Source: an uncultured Kordiimonas sp.
GTDB taxonomy: Bacteria > Pseudomonadota > Alphaproteobacteria > Sphingomonadales > Kordiimonadaceae
Reading direction: 5' to 3'
DNA length: 64,000 nucleotides
NCBI GenBank assembly: GCA_947492375.1
Contig: CANLMI010000002.1
Coordinates: 993,529-1,057,528 of the forward strand
The stretch's first letter is position 1. Every line of letters starts with the position of its first letter. Below are positions 45,767-52,329 of the stretch, one piece after another. Made by a program: the position numbers and the translations under genes. The notes under the pieces were generated by a model. The model ran no database searches, had not been told where the DNA came from, and worked only from the letters and a program-made list of their open reading frames with translations.

Positions 45767-46906
45767 GTGGCAAAACAAAACTATTATGACCTTTTGGGTG
45801 TCGGTAAAGACGCTGATGAAGGCACACTCAAAAAAGCTTTCAGAAAGCAGGCGATGCAATATCATCCGGACCGTAATCCGGGCGACGAAGCAGCTGAAAA
45901 GAAATTCAAGGAAATCGGCGAAGCATATGATGTTTTAAAGGATCCTGAAAAACGTGCAGCTTATGACCGATACGGCCATGCAGCCTTTGAAGGCGGTATG
46001 GGCGGTGGCGGCCATCCTGGTGGCGGTGCTGGCGGGTTTGATTTCTCTGATGTTTTCGAAGAATTTTTTGGTGGTATGGGCGGCGGTCGCCGTCGCCGTG
46101 GTGGTGGTAATAGCGCTACCCGTGGAAACGACCTCCGCTTTAATCTGGAAATCACGCTTGAAGAGGCATTCAACGGTAAATCGGATACTATTAAAGTACC
46201 GACATCGGTTTCGTGTGAGCCTTGTAATGGTTCTGGCGCAGAAAAAGGTTCCAGCCCTGAGGTTTGTGGTACTTGCGGTGGCCACGGTAAAGTTCGGGCC
46301 AATCAGGGTTTCTTTATGGTGGAGCGCACGTGTCCAACATGCCAAGGCGCCGGCCACACGATCAAAAACCCATGTAAAGTATGCCGGGGTGCAGGTCGTG
46401 TAGAAAAAGAGAAGACCCTTGAGGTTAAAATTCCGCAGGGTGTTGACGAGGGCCAACGCATTAGATTGTCTGGTGAAGGTGAAGCAGGCGTTCGCGGTGG
46501 TCCAGCGGGTGACCTTTATATTTTCCTCACGATTAAACCACATTCAATTTTTAAGCGCGATTCAGAAATGTTGTTCTGTCAGGTACCTATACCAATGACC
46601 ACAGCAGTTATGGGCGGACAAATTGAGGTGCCAACAATCGGTGGTGGTCGTGCACGGGTTAAAATACCGGAAGGCACGCAAAGCGGCCGTCAATTCCGGT
46701 TGCGCGGGAAAGGTATGCCGGAGTTAAACGGTGGGTATGTTGGGGATATGATCCTTGAAACAGCCGTTGAAACACCTGTTAACTTAACTAAACGTCAGCG
46801 CGAACTGATGGAAGAATTTGCACAAGAAGGCGGCGATAATATTTCGCCGAGGTCAGAAGGCTTTTTTACCAAAGTTAAAGATCTCTGGGATGATCTGACG
46901 GAATAG
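45767..46906 (+). CDS. dnaJ: Chaperone DnaJ (Hsp40)
   Basis: 379 residues with a GTG start. J domain with the HPD triad in [14 protein letters not shown], a Gly/Phe-rich stretch with GGGMGGG runs, and a zinc domain with four CxxCxGxG repeats ([32 protein letters not shown]). The standard type I co-chaperone of DnaK. Ends 53 bases before the convergent TetR gene. Confidence 0.98.
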
Positions 46907-46934: not shown

Positions 46935-46960
46935 AAGAGGGGTATTTATCTCTCTTTTTT
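46935..46960 (+). terminator. Weak terminator after dnaJ
   Basis: Short stem AAGAG/CTCTT with a 12-base loop followed by T residues, 28 bases after the dnaJ stop. The stem is only five pairs long, so confidence is limited. Confidence 0.4.
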
Positions 46961-47579
46961 ATTGGTCGTTTAAGGTGCCGACATAGGCTTCCAACAATAT
47001 TCTTAATTCGTCTATTAAGCTTTCTGCTTCTGCTTCATTTTCAATGGCTTGATCAATAAGAACTGAAATAACAGTAGAGAGTGTAGTTATGACCGCTTGT
47101 TTTCTCATTTGATTTGGGAGCATATTTGAACGGTCTAATACTTGTTCTACCATCAATGGGATTTGGCTATTATTGTGTGTGGTTGATTCCCAGATTGTGC
47201 TTAAGCTGTTTGCCCACCGCGTTAATTGATTAAAGCTTTTGTGGGTTTTTGCTGTGGTCCAGAAAACAGTGATAATTTCATTATTCAGGCTTTGAAAGTC
47301 GGGTTTTATATCCGTCTTTTCCAAAGCACTTTGAACTTTATCAAGCACTTCATTGTAAGCATTGGCATAGAGGAATTCCAGAATATCCTCGCGGCAATCA
47401 AAATATTGGTAAATTGAACCCACTGGAATGCCCGCTGTTGCTGATAGTTTTGTTGTCGTTAAAGCATCAACCCCTTCCGTTTCTACAATTGTTTTACTTA
47501 TGGATAATATTTTTTCCACTCGTTCAATGGCACGCACTTGTTTCGGGATTTTCTTAATTTTTTCTGGCCAATTGGGCAA
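46959..47579 (-). CDS. TetR/AcrR-family transcriptional regulator
   Basis: 206 residues with a TTG start. N-terminal TetR domain: RVEKILSISKTIVETEGVDALTTTKLSATAGIPVGSIYQYFDCREDILEF includes the helix-turn-helix and the YQYF turn. The C-terminal part is a helical ligand domain with no recognisable specificity. Divergent from the beta-helix/diheme cytochrome pair at 47717, which it probably controls; an inverted repeat lies 20 bases before its start. Confidence 0.88.
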   Translation of the reverse strand: MPNWPEKIKKIPKQVRAIERVEKILSISKTIVETEGVDALTTTKLSATAGIPVGSIYQYFDCREDILEFLYANAYNEVLDKVQSALEKTDIKPDFQSLNNEIITVFWTTAKTHKSFNQLTRWANSLSTIWESTTHNNSQIPLMVEQVLDRSNMLPNQMRKQAVITTLSTVISVLIDQAIENEAEAESLIDELRILLEAYVGTLNDQ

Positions 47580-47598
47580 AATGATAAGCTTTCATTAA

Positions 47599-47613
47599 GT
47601 GAATAGGTTTCAC
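47599..47613. promoter_or_regulatory. Candidate TetR operator
   Basis: Perfect inverted repeat GTGAA-TAGGT-TTCAC in the 137-base gap between the divergent TetR and beta-helix genes. A second overlapping repeat, TTCA-TTAAG-TGAA, begins at 47591. Position suits an operator for both genes. Confidence 0.4.
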
Positions 47614-47716
47614 ATTTATTGACTGCGGTATAAATTTATGTAATCTGGAACTCATATGTTGGCAACTCTGATCGCAAAATGTCAGTGATTGACGAATATA
47701 ATGGGGAGAATACATC

Positions 47717-48967
47717 ATGCAGCTAAAGACCATAATGGCTTATATTTCTGTTTTTTTAGTAAGCGGAAATATATGGGCGCAATCAGGACAAACCATTCAG
47801 ATTGTACCGGGTGAAAATGTTGAAGAGCAACTTCAAGAAGCATTAATTCTGGCAGAACCGGGAAGTATTATTGAGCTGGCGGCGGGCAATTATCAGTTTT
47901 TGGGTGCTCTTTCGATTGAAGTCGAAGGTATTACCCTTAGAGGGGCGGGTAAGAATGCTACGGTTTTGTCGTTTAAAGGGCAAGAATCAGGCTCTGAAGG
48001 ATTGTTGATTACATCAAACAATGTCGTAATTGAAAAGCTTGCTATTGAGGATATGCCCGGCGACGGCGTTAAGGCAAAAGGTGCTGATACGATTTCGTTC
48101 ATTGATATGCGTGTTGAATGGACAGGCGGACCCAAAGAAACAAATGGTGCATATGGCCTTTACCCTGTTCAGTCCAAGAACGTTCTTGTAGACGGTGTTG
48201 TTGTACGCGGTGCATCTGACGCTGGTATTTATGTTGGACAAAGCCAACAGATTATTGTTCGCAATAGTCTTGTTGAATATAATGTTGCAGGGATTGAAAT
48301 TGAAAACTGTTACTATGCTGATGTTTATAACAATGTAGCAGAGCATAATACAGGCGGTATTCTCGTGTTTGATATGCCAAATTTGCCACAAAAGGGTGGC
48401 CATTCAATCCGCGTTTTTAATAATAAATCAATTAATAATGATACGGATAATTTTGCACCTGCTGGTAATATTGTTGGTACTGTGCCGCGCGGTACAGGTA
48501 TTATGGTGCTATCGAACCGTGATATCGAAATTTTTGAAAATGAAATTGCAGGAAATGGTTCGGCCAACATTTTGCTTGCCTCTTTCCAGCAGGAATATGA
48601 TGACCCTGATTATAACCCCTTACCGCAGAATGTGTATATTCACGATAATACATATGGTGATGGCGGTTTTAACCCCGATAAAGAAGTGAAAACTATTGTG
48701 GCACCTCTAACAGGTATGCCTGTACCTGATATTGTTTGGGACGGTGTTGTTGATGGTGTTTGGGCGGCGATGTTTGGCCCGGATAGCGATGATGCCATTT
48801 ATGTTAAAGAGTCGGATGATACGACTTTTGTGAACTTGCAGCTTATGCTCGATGTGATTTTACCTTGGGGTGCTTCCATTGATACAGATAAAAGCGATTA
48901 TGCGGGAAGTATTCCTGCTCGCGCTGCAATTACCTTGCCGCAGGATAGTGATGGTGCCAGTGATTAG
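47717..48967 (+). CDS. Secreted parallel beta-helix protein (TIGR03805-type)
   Basis: 416 residues. A signal peptide ends near IWAQS (about residue 22), so periplasmic or secreted. The middle has regular right-handed beta-helix turns: GLLITSNNVVIEKLAIED, NVLVDGVVVRGASDAGIYVG, IIVRNSLVEYNVAGIEIENC, and YADVYNNVAEHNTGGILVFD. GGGGAGA is the ribosome site. This family is known to occur in two-gene pairs with the diheme protein encoded next (42 bases away); the function of the pair is unknown. Such folds often bind or cleave polysaccharide, but no catalytic site is evident. Confidence 0.85.
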   Translation: MQLKTIMAYISVFLVSGNIWAQSGQTIQIVPGENVEEQLQEALILAEPGSIIELAAGNYQFLGALSIEVEGITLRGAGKNATVLSFKGQESGSEGLLITSNNVVIEKLAIEDMPGDGVKAKGADTISFIDMRVEWTGGPKETNGAYGLYPVQSKNVLVDGVVVRGASDAGIYVGQSQQIIVRNSLVEYNVAGIEIENCYYADVYNNVAEHNTGGILVFDMPNLPQKGGHSIRVFNNKSINNDTDNFAPAGNIVGTVPRGTGIMVLSNRDIEIFENEIAGNGSANILLASFQQEYDDPDYNPLPQNVYIHDNTYGDGGFNPDKEVKTIVAPLTGMPVPDIVWDGVVDGVWAAMFGPDSDDAIYVKESDDTTFVNLQLMLDVILPWGASIDTDKSDYAGSIPARAAITLPQDSDGASD

Positions 48968-49009
48968 CTGTCTTAATTCATGGTTATCAATATCAGAAGG
49001 TAGAAAACG

Positions 49010-50095
49010 GTGAATGTCAGGTTTTTAAGTATCGCGATCAGCATTCTTGCCCTTTTCCAAATCATAGAGAATGTTGCATTTGCGCAAGAAAGTGTAGAAA
49101 AGATAGCGCCAATCAATCAAGATGCTTTGTTAACGGCTAGGCCTGCCCGTACTCTTTCTGAATATCGTTTATTTGCAGATATGAAGGCACAAAAGCCTGC
49201 TGTTGGTGTTGTGCCTTATGACCTTCAGGTATCGCTATTTACTGATTACGCTCATAAGTATCGGTTTGTGTATGTGCCAGAGGGTGAAAAGGCGAAATAC
49301 GATGAAAACGAAGTGCTACAGTTTCCGGTTGGCTCGGTTTTAATTAAAACATTTGCGTATCCGGCAGATTTTCGAAAGTCGGATCAAAATATACGCCTTT
49401 TGGAAACACGGCTTTTGATCCATCAGGAAAAGGGCTGGAATGCATGGGCATATGTTTGGAATGAAGAGCAAACCGAGGCTGTGCTAAAAGTCGCCGGGGC
49501 GCGGATGGATGTGGACTGGATCGACCATAAAGGTAATCTTCGGCAAATTCGCTACAATGTACCCAATAAAAATCAATGTAAGGGCTGCCATATTTTAGGC
49601 AAGGTATTTTCGCCTATTGGCCCTAAGGCAAGACATTTAAATAAAGAGTATCACTATATGTCAGGGCCGGAAAATCAGCTGATTAACTGGAGCCGTCGTG
49701 GAATGCTGGAAGGGGTTCCTGACCTTGAAAAAGTTCAAAATGTTCCCGCGATTGATGATGAAAAGGCTGATTTAAATAAACGTGCACGTGCCTATCTTGA
49801 TATCAACTGCGCCCATTGTCACCGAAGAGAGGGGCCTGCTTCTACCTCGGGTTTGTTTTTAACAAACGGTGAGGATAACCCTGTTCATTGGGGATACAAA
49901 AAACGCCCCATTGCTGCCGGGCGTGGATCAGGCGGTTTGCTTTTTGATATTGACCCTGGTAAGCCAGAGAATTCAATCATCCATTTTCGTATGCACTCAA
50001 CAGACCCTGGCATCATGATGCCTGAGACAGGTCGAACAATTGTTCACAAAGAAGGTTTGCGGCTTATTCATGAATGGATTGAAAAGCTCAAATAA
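49010..50095 (+). CDS. SO_2930-family diheme c-type cytochrome (TIGR03806-type)
   Basis: 361 residues with a GTG start and a signal peptide ending near FAQE. Two haem c sites, CKGCH (about residue 195) and CAHCH (about residue 263), with later Met and His that could be axial ligands (MHSTDPGIMMPETG). The N-terminal LTARPARTLSEYRLFADM and DLQVSLFTDYAHKYRFVYVP segments are characteristic of the family. Periplasmic electron carrier or oxidase of unknown role, partner of the beta-helix protein upstream. Confidence 0.88.
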   Translation: MNVRFLSIAISILALFQIIENVAFAQESVEKIAPINQDALLTARPARTLSEYRLFADMKAQKPAVGVVPYDLQVSLFTDYAHKYRFVYVPEGEKAKYDENEVLQFPVGSVLIKTFAYPADFRKSDQNIRLLETRLLIHQEKGWNAWAYVWNEEQTEAVLKVAGARMDVDWIDHKGNLRQIRYNVPNKNQCKGCHILGKVFSPIGPKARHLNKEYHYMSGPENQLINWSRRGMLEGVPDLEKVQNVPAIDDEKADLNKRARAYLDINCAHCHRREGPASTSGLFLTNGEDNPVHWGYKKRPIAAGRGSGGLLFDIDPGKPENSIIHFRMHSTDPGIMMPETGRTIVHKEGLRLIHEWIEKLK

Positions 50096-50222
50096 TTTCA
50101 ATCGATGCTGAAGCTTGGTTCTGTGTGACTTTCTTGTGGTGCTATTTGCCGTCTCTATGTTAGTCAAACATATTATAGAGCCCTTATGTAAAAGGGTGTT
50201 TATATTCGATAAAGGCAAAAGC

Positions 50223-51035
50223 ATGTCAGGTAATGAATTTAAAGTTGGTATTGTGGGCGCTATGGGGCGAATGGGGCAGGCAATTATTGCGGCGTTACAA
50301 GGCCATTCAGTCCTTCGTTTTTCGGCAGCGAGCGATATAGAAACACACCCGATGATCGGTAAGGAATGTTATCTAGGTACAGGTGTTTCATTGAGTACCA
50401 ATAGCCAAAGTGTTTTTGAGGCGTCTGATGTTGTTATTGACTTTACACCGCCCGGTAATACGCAAACCCATGCAGAATATGCGAAAACATTTAAAACGGC
50501 TTATATTGTCGGAACGACAGGCTTAACTGAAGCTGATCATCAGGCGCTTGACGTTGCGGGCCAATCTGCATGTGTAGTTCAAGCAGGTAACTTTTCGCTC
50601 GGTGTTAACTTAATGACAGCATTTTCAAAAAAAATGGCTGAAGTTTTGGGTGATGAATGGGATATTGAAATCCTTGAAATGCATCATAAGCATAAGGTTG
50701 ATGCCCCGTCTGGTACTGCTGTAATGATCGGTGAAGCAGCAGCCGAAGGCCGCAGGGTTAATTTGGATGAGAAAGCTGTTCGTGCGCGTGATGGCATTAC
50801 GGGCGAGCGTAAATCTGGTGATATTGGGTTTGCAACGCTTCGGGGCGGTTCAGTTATTGGCGAACATGAGATTATTTTTGCAAGTGAAAATGAGCGTTTA
50901 ACATTGTCACATCGTGCAGAAAACAGAGGTTTGTTTGCATCAGGCGCTGTGCGTGCAGCTCATTGGGCGGCCTCTCATGTTAAAGGGCGTTATAATATGA
51001 TGGACGTATTAGAGCTAACTGATTTTGGTGCCTAA
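50223..51035 (+). CDS. dapB: 4-hydroxy-tetrahydrodipicolinate reductase
   Basis: 270 residues from the ATG at 50223, preceded by AAAGG; the frame is open further upstream but the enzyme begins here. NAD(P)H loop VGIVGAMGRMGQAIIAAL, DFTPPGNTQTHAEYA, and EMHHKHKVDAPSGTA with the catalytic His-Lys region. A step of lysine and diaminopimelate synthesis. In Caulobacter it is close to dnaJ, so the TetR/beta-helix/cytochrome cassette may interrupt an older order. Confidence 0.96.
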   Translation: MSGNEFKVGIVGAMGRMGQAIIAALQGHSVLRFSAASDIETHPMIGKECYLGTGVSLSTNSQSVFEASDVVIDFTPPGNTQTHAEYAKTFKTAYIVGTTGLTEADHQALDVAGQSACVVQAGNFSLGVNLMTAFSKKMAEVLGDEWDIEILEMHHKHKVDAPSGTAVMIGEAAAEGRRVNLDEKAVRARDGITGERKSGDIGFATLRGGSVIGEHEIIFASENERLTLSHRAENRGLFASGAVRAAHWAASHVKGRYNMMDVLELTDFGA

Positions 51036-51060
51036 GCTTTAGGATGTAAGGGAGCAAAAA

Positions 51061-51474
51061 ATGCAGGAAGTATTGTTATCAATATGGGCTGGGTTACCTG
51101 TTTTTATGGTTCATTCTGGTGTTAGCCTTTTGATCCTCGTTTTTGGGGCATTTATTTATACTAAAGTCACGCGCCATGACGAGATTGCATTGATTCGTGA
51201 CGGGAACGTTGCGGCGTCGCTTTCTTATGGCGGGGCTATCGTGGGTTTGGCGTTACCGCTTGCCTTTTGTCTTTCAGCTTCGGTCTCTGTGTGGGATATT
51301 GTTTTTTGGGGTATTATTGCCCTTGTCTTTCAAATTATTGCCTTTCGTCTGGCAGATTTATTTATGAAGGGTGTTTCAAAGCGTATCGAGGACGGTGAGA
51401 TGAGTGCCGCTGTTATGTTGGTGTCTGTGAAGCTCAGCACAGCTTTCATTAATGCGGCTGCAATATCGGGTTAA
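51061..51474 (+). CDS. DUF350 membrane protein
   Basis: 137 residues with four hydrophobic helices arranged as two repeats (about residues 5-30/44-65 and 75-98/118-135). The segments LIRDGNVAASLSYGGAIVGLALPLA and ISEDGEMSAAV-like RIEDGEMSAAVMLVSVKLS are the duplicated DUF350 motif. Function unknown. GGGAG precedes the ATG; the next gene starts 3 bases after its stop, so the protease downstream is a likely partner. Confidence 0.85.
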   Translation: MQEVLLSIWAGLPVFMVHSGVSLLILVFGAFIYTKVTRHDEIALIRDGNVAASLSYGGAIVGLALPLAFCLSASVSVWDIVFWGIIALVFQIIAFRLADLFMKGVSKRIEDGEMSAAVMLVSVKLSTAFINAAAISG

Positions 51475-51477
51475 ACG

Positions 51478-52329
51478 ATGCGTCGGTTTATCGAATTCTT
51501 TACATATGCTGCAATTATAATAATTGTCATCATCCGTTATGTAGGTGATGCGTCTGATGGTGCCGATCGCCGTGGTGTAAAAAAACAGCCACAGCAACCT
51601 GTCACCCTTTTACCGGACAGAGAAAAATTGCCTAATAATATTGGCGGTGACGTTCTTGTGAATGTGGATAATAAAGCCTCAAATAGTGTTGGGACAGCGT
51701 TTGCTGTTGATGATGCGGGAACATATGTAACAGCGCGTCATGTTGTTGATGGTTGTGACCGCGTTTATATCGCGCATCAGTCTGGTCGGTTTAGCCCTAT
51801 TTCTACTATTAAGGTTGATAATCATCGTGATTTTGCTGTTTTACGGTCAAATCACGTGAAGGCAGGATCGGTTTATCTTGCTTCAACGGCGCCAACACGC
51901 GGTGATGATGGGTATATGATGGGGTATCCACAAGGAAAGCCTGCTGATGTTCGGGCAACGGTTATTGGCCGTAATGATATGCGATCATCTGGTAGTTACC
52001 GCGCGCGTGAACCTGTTGTTGCATGGGTAGAACGTGAACGCCTACCAGTTTTTAGCGGGGCATTGGGCGGGATATCCGGAGGGCCTGTTTTTGATAGTGA
52101 CGGTATTGTGGTTGGTACTGTCGTCGCTGGTGCGCCGCGCCGTGGCCGCGTTTATACGACGCACCCCCGTGTTTTTCGAAACGGTGATCTTGGTGACAGG
52201 TTACACTTTAAAAAAGATGAAGAAGTATGGCGCCCAATAACGTCTGATAATTATGCTAATATTGGCCGTGAACTAAGGGGGGCTAAAACTATAACGCAGG
52301 TATATTGTCAGGTGATATCAAAACCCTGA
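51478..52329 (+). CDS. Membrane-anchored trypsin-like serine protease
   Basis: 283 residues. A short hydrophobic stretch near residues 8-20 may anchor it, leaving the protease domain in the periplasm. Catalytic triad of the S1 family: His in TYVTARHVVDGCDR, Asp in DNHRDFAVLRS, Ser in GGISGGPVFDSDG. No PDZ domain follows, unlike DegP/HtrA. Starts 3 bases after the DUF350 gene. Substrate unknown. Last 22 bases overlap the convergent DUF2244 gene. Confidence 0.85.
   Translation: MRRFIEFFTYAAIIIIVIIRYVGDASDGADRRGVKKQPQQPVTLLPDREKLPNNIGGDVLVNVDNKASNSVGTAFAVDDAGTYVTARHVVDGCDRVYIAHQSGRFSPISTIKVDNHRDFAVLRSNHVKAGSVYLASTAPTRGDDGYMMGYPQGKPADVRATVIGRNDMRSSGSYRAREPVVAWVERERLPVFSGALGGISGGPVFDSDGIVVGTVVAGAPRRGRVYTTHPRVFRNGDLGDRLHFKKDEEVWRPITSDNYANIGRELRGAKTITQVYCQVISKP

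Follow-up and report, generated by a model that had tools for sequence, protein, structure and literature searches.

In a 64,000-nucleotide stretch of DNA from an uncultured marine Kordiimonas sp. (contig CANLMI010000002.1, positions 993,529 to 1,057,528; hereafter the window), a small cassette codes for a TetR-family regulator and, divergently, for a secreted right-handed beta-helix protein and a secreted two-haem cytochrome. We propose, tentatively and at somewhat less than even confidence, that the latter two constitute a TetR-controlled, extracytoplasmic two-subunit redox enzyme in which haem 1 of the cytochrome is catalytic. The domain carrying this haem is probably a distant relative of the fold shared by cytochrome c'-beta and cytochrome P460, a haem enzyme oxidising hydroxylamine. 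In the proposed scheme, the beta-helix would recognise and hold the substrate, haem 1 would provide an open catalytic site within its P460/c'-beta-like domain, and haem 2, a Met-ligated class I haem, would hand electrons, presumably in that direction, to the respiratory chain. The genes concerned are the following.

46959-47579, minus strand: TetR-family regulator of 206 amino acids with a TTG start, divergent from the beta-helix/cytochrome pair
47717-48967, plus strand: secreted right-handed beta-helix protein, TIGR03805 family, 416 amino acids
49010-50095, plus strand: secreted two-haem cytochrome, TIGR03806 family, 361 amino acids with a GTG start

A sequence-only reading of the window had described the two secreted proteins as encoded 42 bases apart, with a divergent TetR gene, in a cassette placed between dnaJ and dapB. 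The open reading frame coordinates and the family matches agree with this description. The gap between the beta-helix and cytochrome genes is 42 bases (48968-49009), the beta-helix protein matches NCBIfam TIGR03805 with 406.8 bits (cut-off 141.5; profile positions 1-314 of 314), the cytochrome matches TIGR03806 with 419.5 bits (cut-off 313.3; positions 2-314 of 314), and the regulator reaches 25 bits for Pfam TetR_N against a cut-off of 24. The flanks are likewise as claimed, with dnaJ (45767-46906) on one side and dapB on the other. The extracytoplasmic redox role suggested by the same reading is supported. Both CxxCH motifs required for TIGR03806 are present in the cytochrome. The N-terminus of the beta-helix protein, judged from its sequence, resembles a signal peptide, and an extracytoplasmic location is supported for both proteins by their signal-like N-termini. 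The source genome (3.94 Mb) holds a single TIGR03806 copy.

The haem-1 domain of the cytochrome

The features of the cytochrome on which the proposal draws are listed below; the residue counts refer to 130 aligned rows, which include near-duplicates and one fragment.

49118-49705, plus strand: haem-1 domain with a predicted cytochrome P460/c'-beta-like fold, residues 37-232, from fold ranking, sub-threshold Pfam matches and profile alignment
49577-49591, plus strand: haem 1 motif CKGCH, residues 190-194 (C190, C193 and H194 invariant in alignment A5)
49808-49822, plus strand: haem 2 motif CAHCH, residues 267-271 (C267, C270 and H271 invariant in A5)
49262-49264, plus strand: Arg85, candidate capping residue by spacing only, 28 residues before Lys113; R in 125/130 rows
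49346-49348, plus strand: Lys113, aligned by hhalign with the haem cross-linking lysine of P460; K in 127/130 rows
49403-49405, plus strand: Glu132, candidate distal carboxylate by strand order only, in a gapped part of the alignment; E in 127/130 rows
50018-50020, plus strand: Met337, followed by P338, likely axial ligand of haem 2; M in 127/130 rows

Three lines of evidence, each weak by itself, relate the haem-1 domain to the P460/c'-beta fold. The first is the ranking of solved folds against the model of the window cytochrome, which was built with 62 family sequences (predicted local distance difference test, pLDDT, 95.0; predicted template modelling score, pTM, 0.89). After VIA-align of the Foldseek candidates, the top 16 rows are all P460 or c'-beta structures, with Z from 7.2 to 5.3, and the next row falls to Z 3.4; these 16 entries represent six different proteins, several of them as mutants. 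The superpositions cover 117-139 residues at 3.5-4.9 Å, over model residues ~34-240. The second line comes from Pfam, where 19 of the 62 family members have a Cytochrome_P460 (PF16694) match at E up to 1, the best being 2.6e-4. The third is an hhalign profile alignment between the family and 13 P460-type proteins from relatives (E 4.5e-5, probability 68.9, 36 columns), which pairs FPVGSVLIK113 with FPDGSILVK. Against 20 P460-type sequences the alignment reaches 34.1, and 29.2 when limited to well-filled columns; the latter value compares with a mean of 12.6 and a maximum of 17.9 in 100 column shuffles and with 13.4 for the reversed query. Removal of the CxxCH part leaves the haem-1 domain at 28.45, where 100 shuffles reach 16.48 at most.

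Several results pull the other way. VIA itself warns that Z values below 8 can reflect a common arrangement only. The Foldseek search of the PDB gave no significant match for the cytochrome, its best hit (E 0.094) being an unrelated protein and P460 occupying ranks 3 to 5, from E 0.17. The window protein itself is unlisted for PF16694 at E up to 1 (gathering score 27 bits), and other families are matched by more of the 62 members, namely, CBB3 (56), Cytochrom_C (55), PSCyt1 (47) and MtrC/F (43). The cytochrome profile retrieved no P460 up to E 1 from the PDB sequences but only class I cytochromes and NapB, the best hit (E 2.3e-9) being a linked trimer, and a single-sequence search of solved structures gave no match for either the cytochrome or the beta-helix protein. 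Finally, a score of 23.3 against P460 is obtained with the class I half of the cytochrome by itself, through its CxxCH motif. The PDB profile search and this class I control temper our confidence in the P460 fold.

With regard to individual residues, the apparent likeness to P460 and c'-beta extends from the predicted haem-1 fold, with CxxCH at the C-terminal end of a beta-sheet domain, to a lysine at the cross-link position of the profile alignment and an arginine 28 residues ahead of it, as in McP460. Table 2 of PMC11928373 gives Lys70, Lys78 and Lys106 as cross-linking lysines, and its numbers place Arg50 of McP460 28 residues before Lys78. Lys106 of NsP460 was located through the K106L/A131E mutant 6w6n, which has L where the wild type has K in DGTVIVKEL. 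Only 7 of the 13 fetched P460-type proteins carry a lysine at this position, and the constancy of Lys113 in TIGR03806 is thus notable; in the 62 rows of A5, Lys113, Arg85, Glu132 and Met337 are all invariant. Lys113, Arg85 and Glu132 would line the haem pocket, and haem 1 would be open or cross-linked, with a real Lys113-haem cross-link having less than an even chance. The second haem (CAHCH, Met337-Pro338) is of the ordinary class I cytochrome c type. Compared with P460 and c'-beta proteins, the cytochrome lies below the Pfam gathering score, carries this second haem domain and has partner proteins. With a P460-like haem-1 domain, it may be more than a plain electron carrier.

Two further observations concern TIGR03806-type and P460-type genes. 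In a Hydrogenedentota locus (L078:9914-12243), two TIGR03806-type genes stand in tandem, the second having Gln at the Lys113 position. The genome of the window also holds PF16694 P460-type genes at G000:C1:200352-200726, 357883-358284 and 359428-359859, two of which are divergent neighbours.

The beta-helix protein and its pairing with the cytochrome

Eight residues of the beta-helix protein (Y146, P150, D168, Y172, E194, E196, N197 and N211) are identical in all 38 sequences aligned from the two branches of the family described below, which suggests a functional face. Its fold was assessed on a fused Shewanella protein modelled with 111 sequences (pLDDT 82.7, pTM 0.62). Nearly all fold alignments of this model stop by residue 492 (two reach 820-821), and the cytochrome half was therefore modelled alone. 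The fused model matches the alginate epimerase/lyase 8jaz (Z 32.7), AlgE4 (Z 31.0), RbmB (Z 30.4) and NosD (Z 27.9); epimerases/lyases of the AlgE type (2pyg, 8jaz) are the best solved folds for this half, at Z 31-33 and 20-23% identity. Profile matches of the beta-helix to solved structures are weak and partial, and AlgE4 is not among them, nor does it appear with a sub-stretch as query. Matches in a viral fold library were of beta-helix type, among the matches listed.

The resemblance to AlgE includes a YGxxP-like motif, with Y146 and P150 in 38 of 38 rows and G147 in 35. In AlgE, the contiguous motif is YGFDPH. In its place the window protein has YGLYPV. Matched by motif rather than by superposition, position 149 holds Tyr or Phe across the 38 rows and position 151 holds Val, Gln, Ile or Glu; neither Asp nor His occurs at either position, whereas the catalytic set given for AlgE in PMC7385640 consists of Tyr149, Asp152, His154 and Asp178. 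Since the Asp and the His are missing from the AlgE-like motif, plain epimerase activity is unlikely.

The sequence-only reading had held that the two families travel as a pair and had proposed a co-occurrence and neighbourhood search; this search was run and found pairing beyond chance. In a class sample of 240 evenly sampled Alphaproteobacteria genomes, the genome of the window included, TIGR03806 exceeds its cut-off in 11 and TIGR03805 in 13. All 11 TIGR03806-positive genomes are also TIGR03805-positive, with domain matches 282-397 bases apart in every case, and the two TIGR03805-only genomes (~196-198 bits) hold members of another beta-helix branch. Among loci fetched from named genomes by means of the cytochrome (the best 80 of 395 relatives), the beta-helix gene adjoins the cytochrome gene on the same strand in 74; the exceptions are L051, truncated where its contig ends, and five loci that have no beta-helix (L042, L056, L059, L063 and L090). 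The pairing of TIGR03805 with TIGR03806 is therefore near-obligate. The closest named relatives in this set belong to the Kordiimonadaceae and Kordiimonadales, and the locus titles include Alphaproteobacteria, Shewanella, SAR86, Bacteroidota, Neomarinimicrobiota, Hydrogenedentota, Planctomycetota and others.

In some organisms the two domains are joined in a single frame of 874-909 amino acids, as seen in six Shewanella loci and in seven more (L161-L167) from a search of 119 genomes of Shewanella's order; L161 has the same sequence as L074, and two of the fusions show 51 and 44% identity to the Shewanella query. The TIGRFAM entry text reportedly already mentions a possible fusion of the pair. 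The fused protein L074 bears a lipobox-like LIACS, and by a simple pattern 42 of 141 beta-helix matches and 48 of 146 cytochrome matches above 300 bits have lipobox-like N-termini, near-duplicates included. A localisation table in PMC4837345 lists SO_2930 and SO_2931 of S. oneidensis as outer membrane or extracellular. The window pair thus belongs to a catalogued association (SO2930 family diheme c-type cytochrome with parallel beta-helix), both members exceeding the curated cut-offs in the same gene order, with fused forms in Shewanella. The open-licence papers searched yielded no study of the function of the pair and no mention of a P460 link. Where TIGR03805 is named in them, it is only as a predicted domain, once in a hypothetical protein from an exopolysaccharide cluster of Burkholderia cenocepacia (PMC3584217) and once in a table of adhesins (PMC5847202), and the words diheme, fusion, fused and domain are absent from the main text of PMC11928373. 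The pair is accordingly already catalogued, and the P460 link was not found in the open-licence papers searched.

No third conserved gene was found beside the pair, the largest neighbour cluster being a short-chain dehydrogenase/reductase (SDR) group at 12 of 80 loci. For the Pfam scan of neighbours, 17 of the 80 loci were set aside as near-repeats and 232 neighbours within two genes were listed, of which 177 (89 + 88) were scanned and 55 left out, for the most part repeats from Kordiimonadales, copies of TetR, short frames and near-duplicates. Gene calling was crude, with the longest frames taken first, and failed at some GC-rich loci. Among the matches listed (top 25 families), no Pfam family occurs in more than 4 of the 89 or 3 of the 88 scanned neighbours, and the scans show no enrichment of a hydrocarbon or steroid context. 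Some alphaproteobacterial neighbours are suggestive of hydrophobic compounds. Genes of hydrocarbon or steroid type (cytochrome P450, FAD dehydrogenase, SDR, DUF1302, alcohol and aldehyde dehydrogenases) occur at L198, L197/L202, L194 and on a Novosphingobium plasmid. In two 1.4-Mb alphaproteobacterial genomes (L198 and L199) the pair lies downstream of other same-strand genes, which at L198 code for a 3-ketosteroid-dehydrogenase-like flavoprotein, an NmrA protein and a P450.

Partner exchange and the proposed function

Each member of the pair also occurs with other partners. A TIGR03806-type domain follows a GSDH (PF07995) propeller, as found in glucose/sorbosone dehydrogenases dependent on pyrroloquinoline quinone (PQQ), in 12 of 12 such long proteins scanned (L155, L156, L158, L159, L171-L174, L184, L186, L189 and L107), four of which carry the starch-binding modules CBM20 or CBM26. 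In L042 and L063, two loci labelled Chitinophaga pinensis that are devoid of the beta-helix, a separate GSDH gene comes immediately after the cytochrome gene; in L056, L059 and L090, which also lack it, no GSDH-type partner was present among the neighbours scanned. The same cytochrome domain is found in these systems, but the partner is a beta-propeller and not a beta-helix, the fusions scanned with NCBIfam score 174-273 bits, under the TIGR03806 cut-off, and the Pfam scan gave no PF07995 match in the window pair. On the other side, a second TIGR03805-type branch bears a C-terminal domain of its own with a single haem, and in all six loci examined (L175, L176, L187, L188, L191 and L192) a diheme enzyme of the MbnH/MauG type is encoded next to it. 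The L175 beta-helix, with 180.4 bits, is over the TIGR03805 cut-off, and the adjacent enzyme exceeds the Pfam CCP_MauG cut-off and remains below those of NCBIfam for MbnH (223.5 of 362.85) and MauG. To our knowledge, which does not extend to a search of the printed literature, this second association has not been described. The beta-helix is thus associated with two unrelated haem enzymes, which favours it as the substrate module, and the cytochrome with two unrelated extracytoplasmic partners, which keeps alive a role of its haems as mere electron acceptors.

That role underlies the alternative in which the beta-helix is a dehydrogenase with an unseen bound or self-made cofactor, both haems serving only as a wire for electrons. 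It would explain the position of the cytochrome domain behind or beside GSDH, the beta-helix simply replacing the dehydrogenase, and an electron-wire role is what would be expected with PQQ sugar dehydrogenases. However, the Pfam and NCBIfam matches on the beta-helix are structural only and include no known redox cofactor or cofactor site, and residues of a P460-like pocket would be superfluous in a wire. We consider this explanation doubtful, albeit with an appreciable chance of being correct.

The proposal of a catalytic haem 1 has its own difficulties. The pocket residues are kept in the GSDH fusions too (K in 10, E in 9 and R in 8 of 11), and beside GSDH the haems may only accept electrons. 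P460 potentials are given as -300 to -424 mV in PMC11928373, and at potentials of this type haem 1 would be a poor electron acceptor. Any substrate, including the polymer or lipid suggested by the sequence-only reading, is hypothetical only, and with a pTM of 0.62 the domain arrangement of the fused model is tentative.

Haem 1 might instead handle a gas or peroxide, with NO, H2O2 or O2 reduced via haem 2 and the beta-helix acting as a surface or polysaccharide anchor. Gas binding has been proposed as a role of cytochrome c'-beta, whose representatives from N. europaea, T. thermophilus and M. capsulatus rank among the best fold matches, and the lipobox-like N-termini would suit an anchored pair. 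Yet Lys113 is kept, while three c'-beta proteins have Met or Phe at that position in Table 2 of PMC11928373, and the invariant face of the beta-helix suggests a role beyond anchoring, so that we regard this explanation as distinctly unlikely.

The second beta-helix branch raises the question of whether the cytochrome modifies its partner post-translationally, in the manner of MbnH/MauG-type enzymes. These enzymes (TIGR04039 set) are likewise haem enzymes beside a secreted partner, the TIGR03805 branch being itself such a neighbour in the six loci above, and PMC3621798 describes a tryptophan-to-kynurenine change in MopE, possibly made by its MauG-like partner. The haem domain of the window cytochrome is unrelated, however, and TIGR03806 is unconvincing as MauG-like, with CCP_MauG (PF03150) unlisted for the window protein and matched by 7 of 62 relatives at a best E of 0.13. 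Trp135, present in 34 of the 38 rows (this branch), is absent from all four MbnH-linked rows aligned. Modification of the beta-helix by the cytochrome is accordingly improbable. That the beta-helix helps to load metal into a copper or haem protein in the manner of NosD is more improbable still, for in spite of the NosD fold matches (best Z 27.9) and of weak profile matches (Pfam NosD 36.9 bits, over its cut-off of 23.6; NCBIfam TIGR04247 38.2 bits), the latter is far under its cut-off of 300, beta-helix folds match one another generally, and no NosFY-type ABC partner recurs (ABC_tran in 3 of 89 and 2 of 88 scanned neighbours).

Regulation and history of the cassette

Two features of the gap between the TetR and beta-helix genes bear on regulation.

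47599-47613, no strand assigned: predicted TetR operator GTGAATAGGTTTCAC (pattern RTGAAWNNNWTTCAY), a palindrome kept in the gap
47619-47646, plus strand: possible promoter directly after the operator, TTGACT and TAATCT separated by 16 bases

The promoter has a weak -10 match and no entry in a separate scan. Conservation was followed in 20 stretches fetched from the family of the window, where a TetR homologue is divergent and upstream of the beta-helix gene in 17. Of the other three, L113 is without TetR, and the divergent copies L112 and L127 show a partial TetR-like match on the opposite side of the pair. The palindrome stands beside a TTGAC box in the window and in all 17 TetR-bearing stretches (n=18), and the pattern derived from that alignment is present in 19 of the 20, being missing from L113, which lacks TetR. 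Seven of the 80 named loci have an upstream TetR homologue, all seven with the site; the motif had been defined without four of them (L033 Parvibaculum, L035 Rhodobiaceae, L053, L080 Sneathiella), which come from outside the family. The pattern occurs 13 times in the 1,430,084 bases of the 80 loci, 7 of these at the TetR-linked sites. Ten further pairs of the class sample have TetR in three and the site in two (L196 and L197, not L202), counts which are minima as the gene caller missed the beta-helix in L193 and L201. The TetR control claimed from the divergent gene thus gains a conserved predicted operator, and the window pair differs in this respect from the catalogued TIGR03805/TIGR03806 pair, having its own TetR and predicted operator.

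The regulator would bind the palindrome. The genome of the window has one 18-base site, that of the cassette (the pattern read backwards, as a control, also gives one match), and since the site is single there and conserved, the regulator looks local and dedicated to the cassette. A wider TetR regulon was considered and rejected, as eight genomes show few extra sites besides that of a second pair copy in G026; these are located next to an acetyltransferase gene (one shared by G010 and G023, which are closely related), an acyltransferase gene and others.

The cassette had further been thought to be an insertion between dnaJ and dapB, and as a recent event this is not supported. The cytochrome is carried by 24 of the 29 genomes of the family, that of the window included. 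In the 20 stretches, which extend only ~2 kb beyond the cytochrome gene, dnaJ is upstream in 14 and dapB downstream in 9, eight of the latter with a DUF350 and a trypsin-like gene. At 0.415, the GC content of the cassette is unremarkable beside the 3-kb mean (0.428, standard deviation 0.021). Five family genomes are TIGR03806-negative (G012, G019, G002, G027 and G028). In G012, a genome of one contig, the order dnaJ-tetR-dapB persists with an open TetR frame and with neither pair nor site at that place (TIGR03805 was not searched elsewhere in the genome), an arrangement most simply explained by loss of the pair. In G019 (76% complete) dnaJ and dapB are adjacent with no part of the cassette between them, in G002 dnaJ is ~0.9 kb from dapB, and in G027 and G028 no dnaJ was found within the short stretch fetched. 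The shared place common in Kordiimonadaceae, the ordinary GC content and the TetR left in G012 argue against a recent insertion, and the cassette therefore reads as old, with losses, rather than newly arrived.

Two observations may be added on the surroundings. The orphan TetR gene of G012 lies at 586-1245 of L129, between dnaJ and dapB. The order dapB, DUF350, trypsin-like protease seen in the window (50220-52329) recurs in eight of the 20 stretches from the family and likewise in L130, L131 and L132.

In its widest form, the proposal would place TIGR03806 within the P460 superfamily, as a widespread branch so far unrecognised, with a Lys-cross-linked haem, an electron-exit haem of its own and swappable partners (beta-helix or PQQ propeller), forming with the beta-helix a new class of extracytoplasmic haem oxidase for a substrate larger than hydroxylamine; taken as a whole, we hold this to be rather unlikely. 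Section 5 of PMC11928373 calls the P460 fold unique to two protein families. A third, widespread family, with a cytochrome c and a partner of carbohydrate-enzyme fold, would, if true, widen the haem chemistry carried out outside the bacterial inner membrane. The conserved predicted TetR operator offers a handle for finding the inducer, and a catalogued family pair with no assigned function now has a testable catalytic hypothesis.

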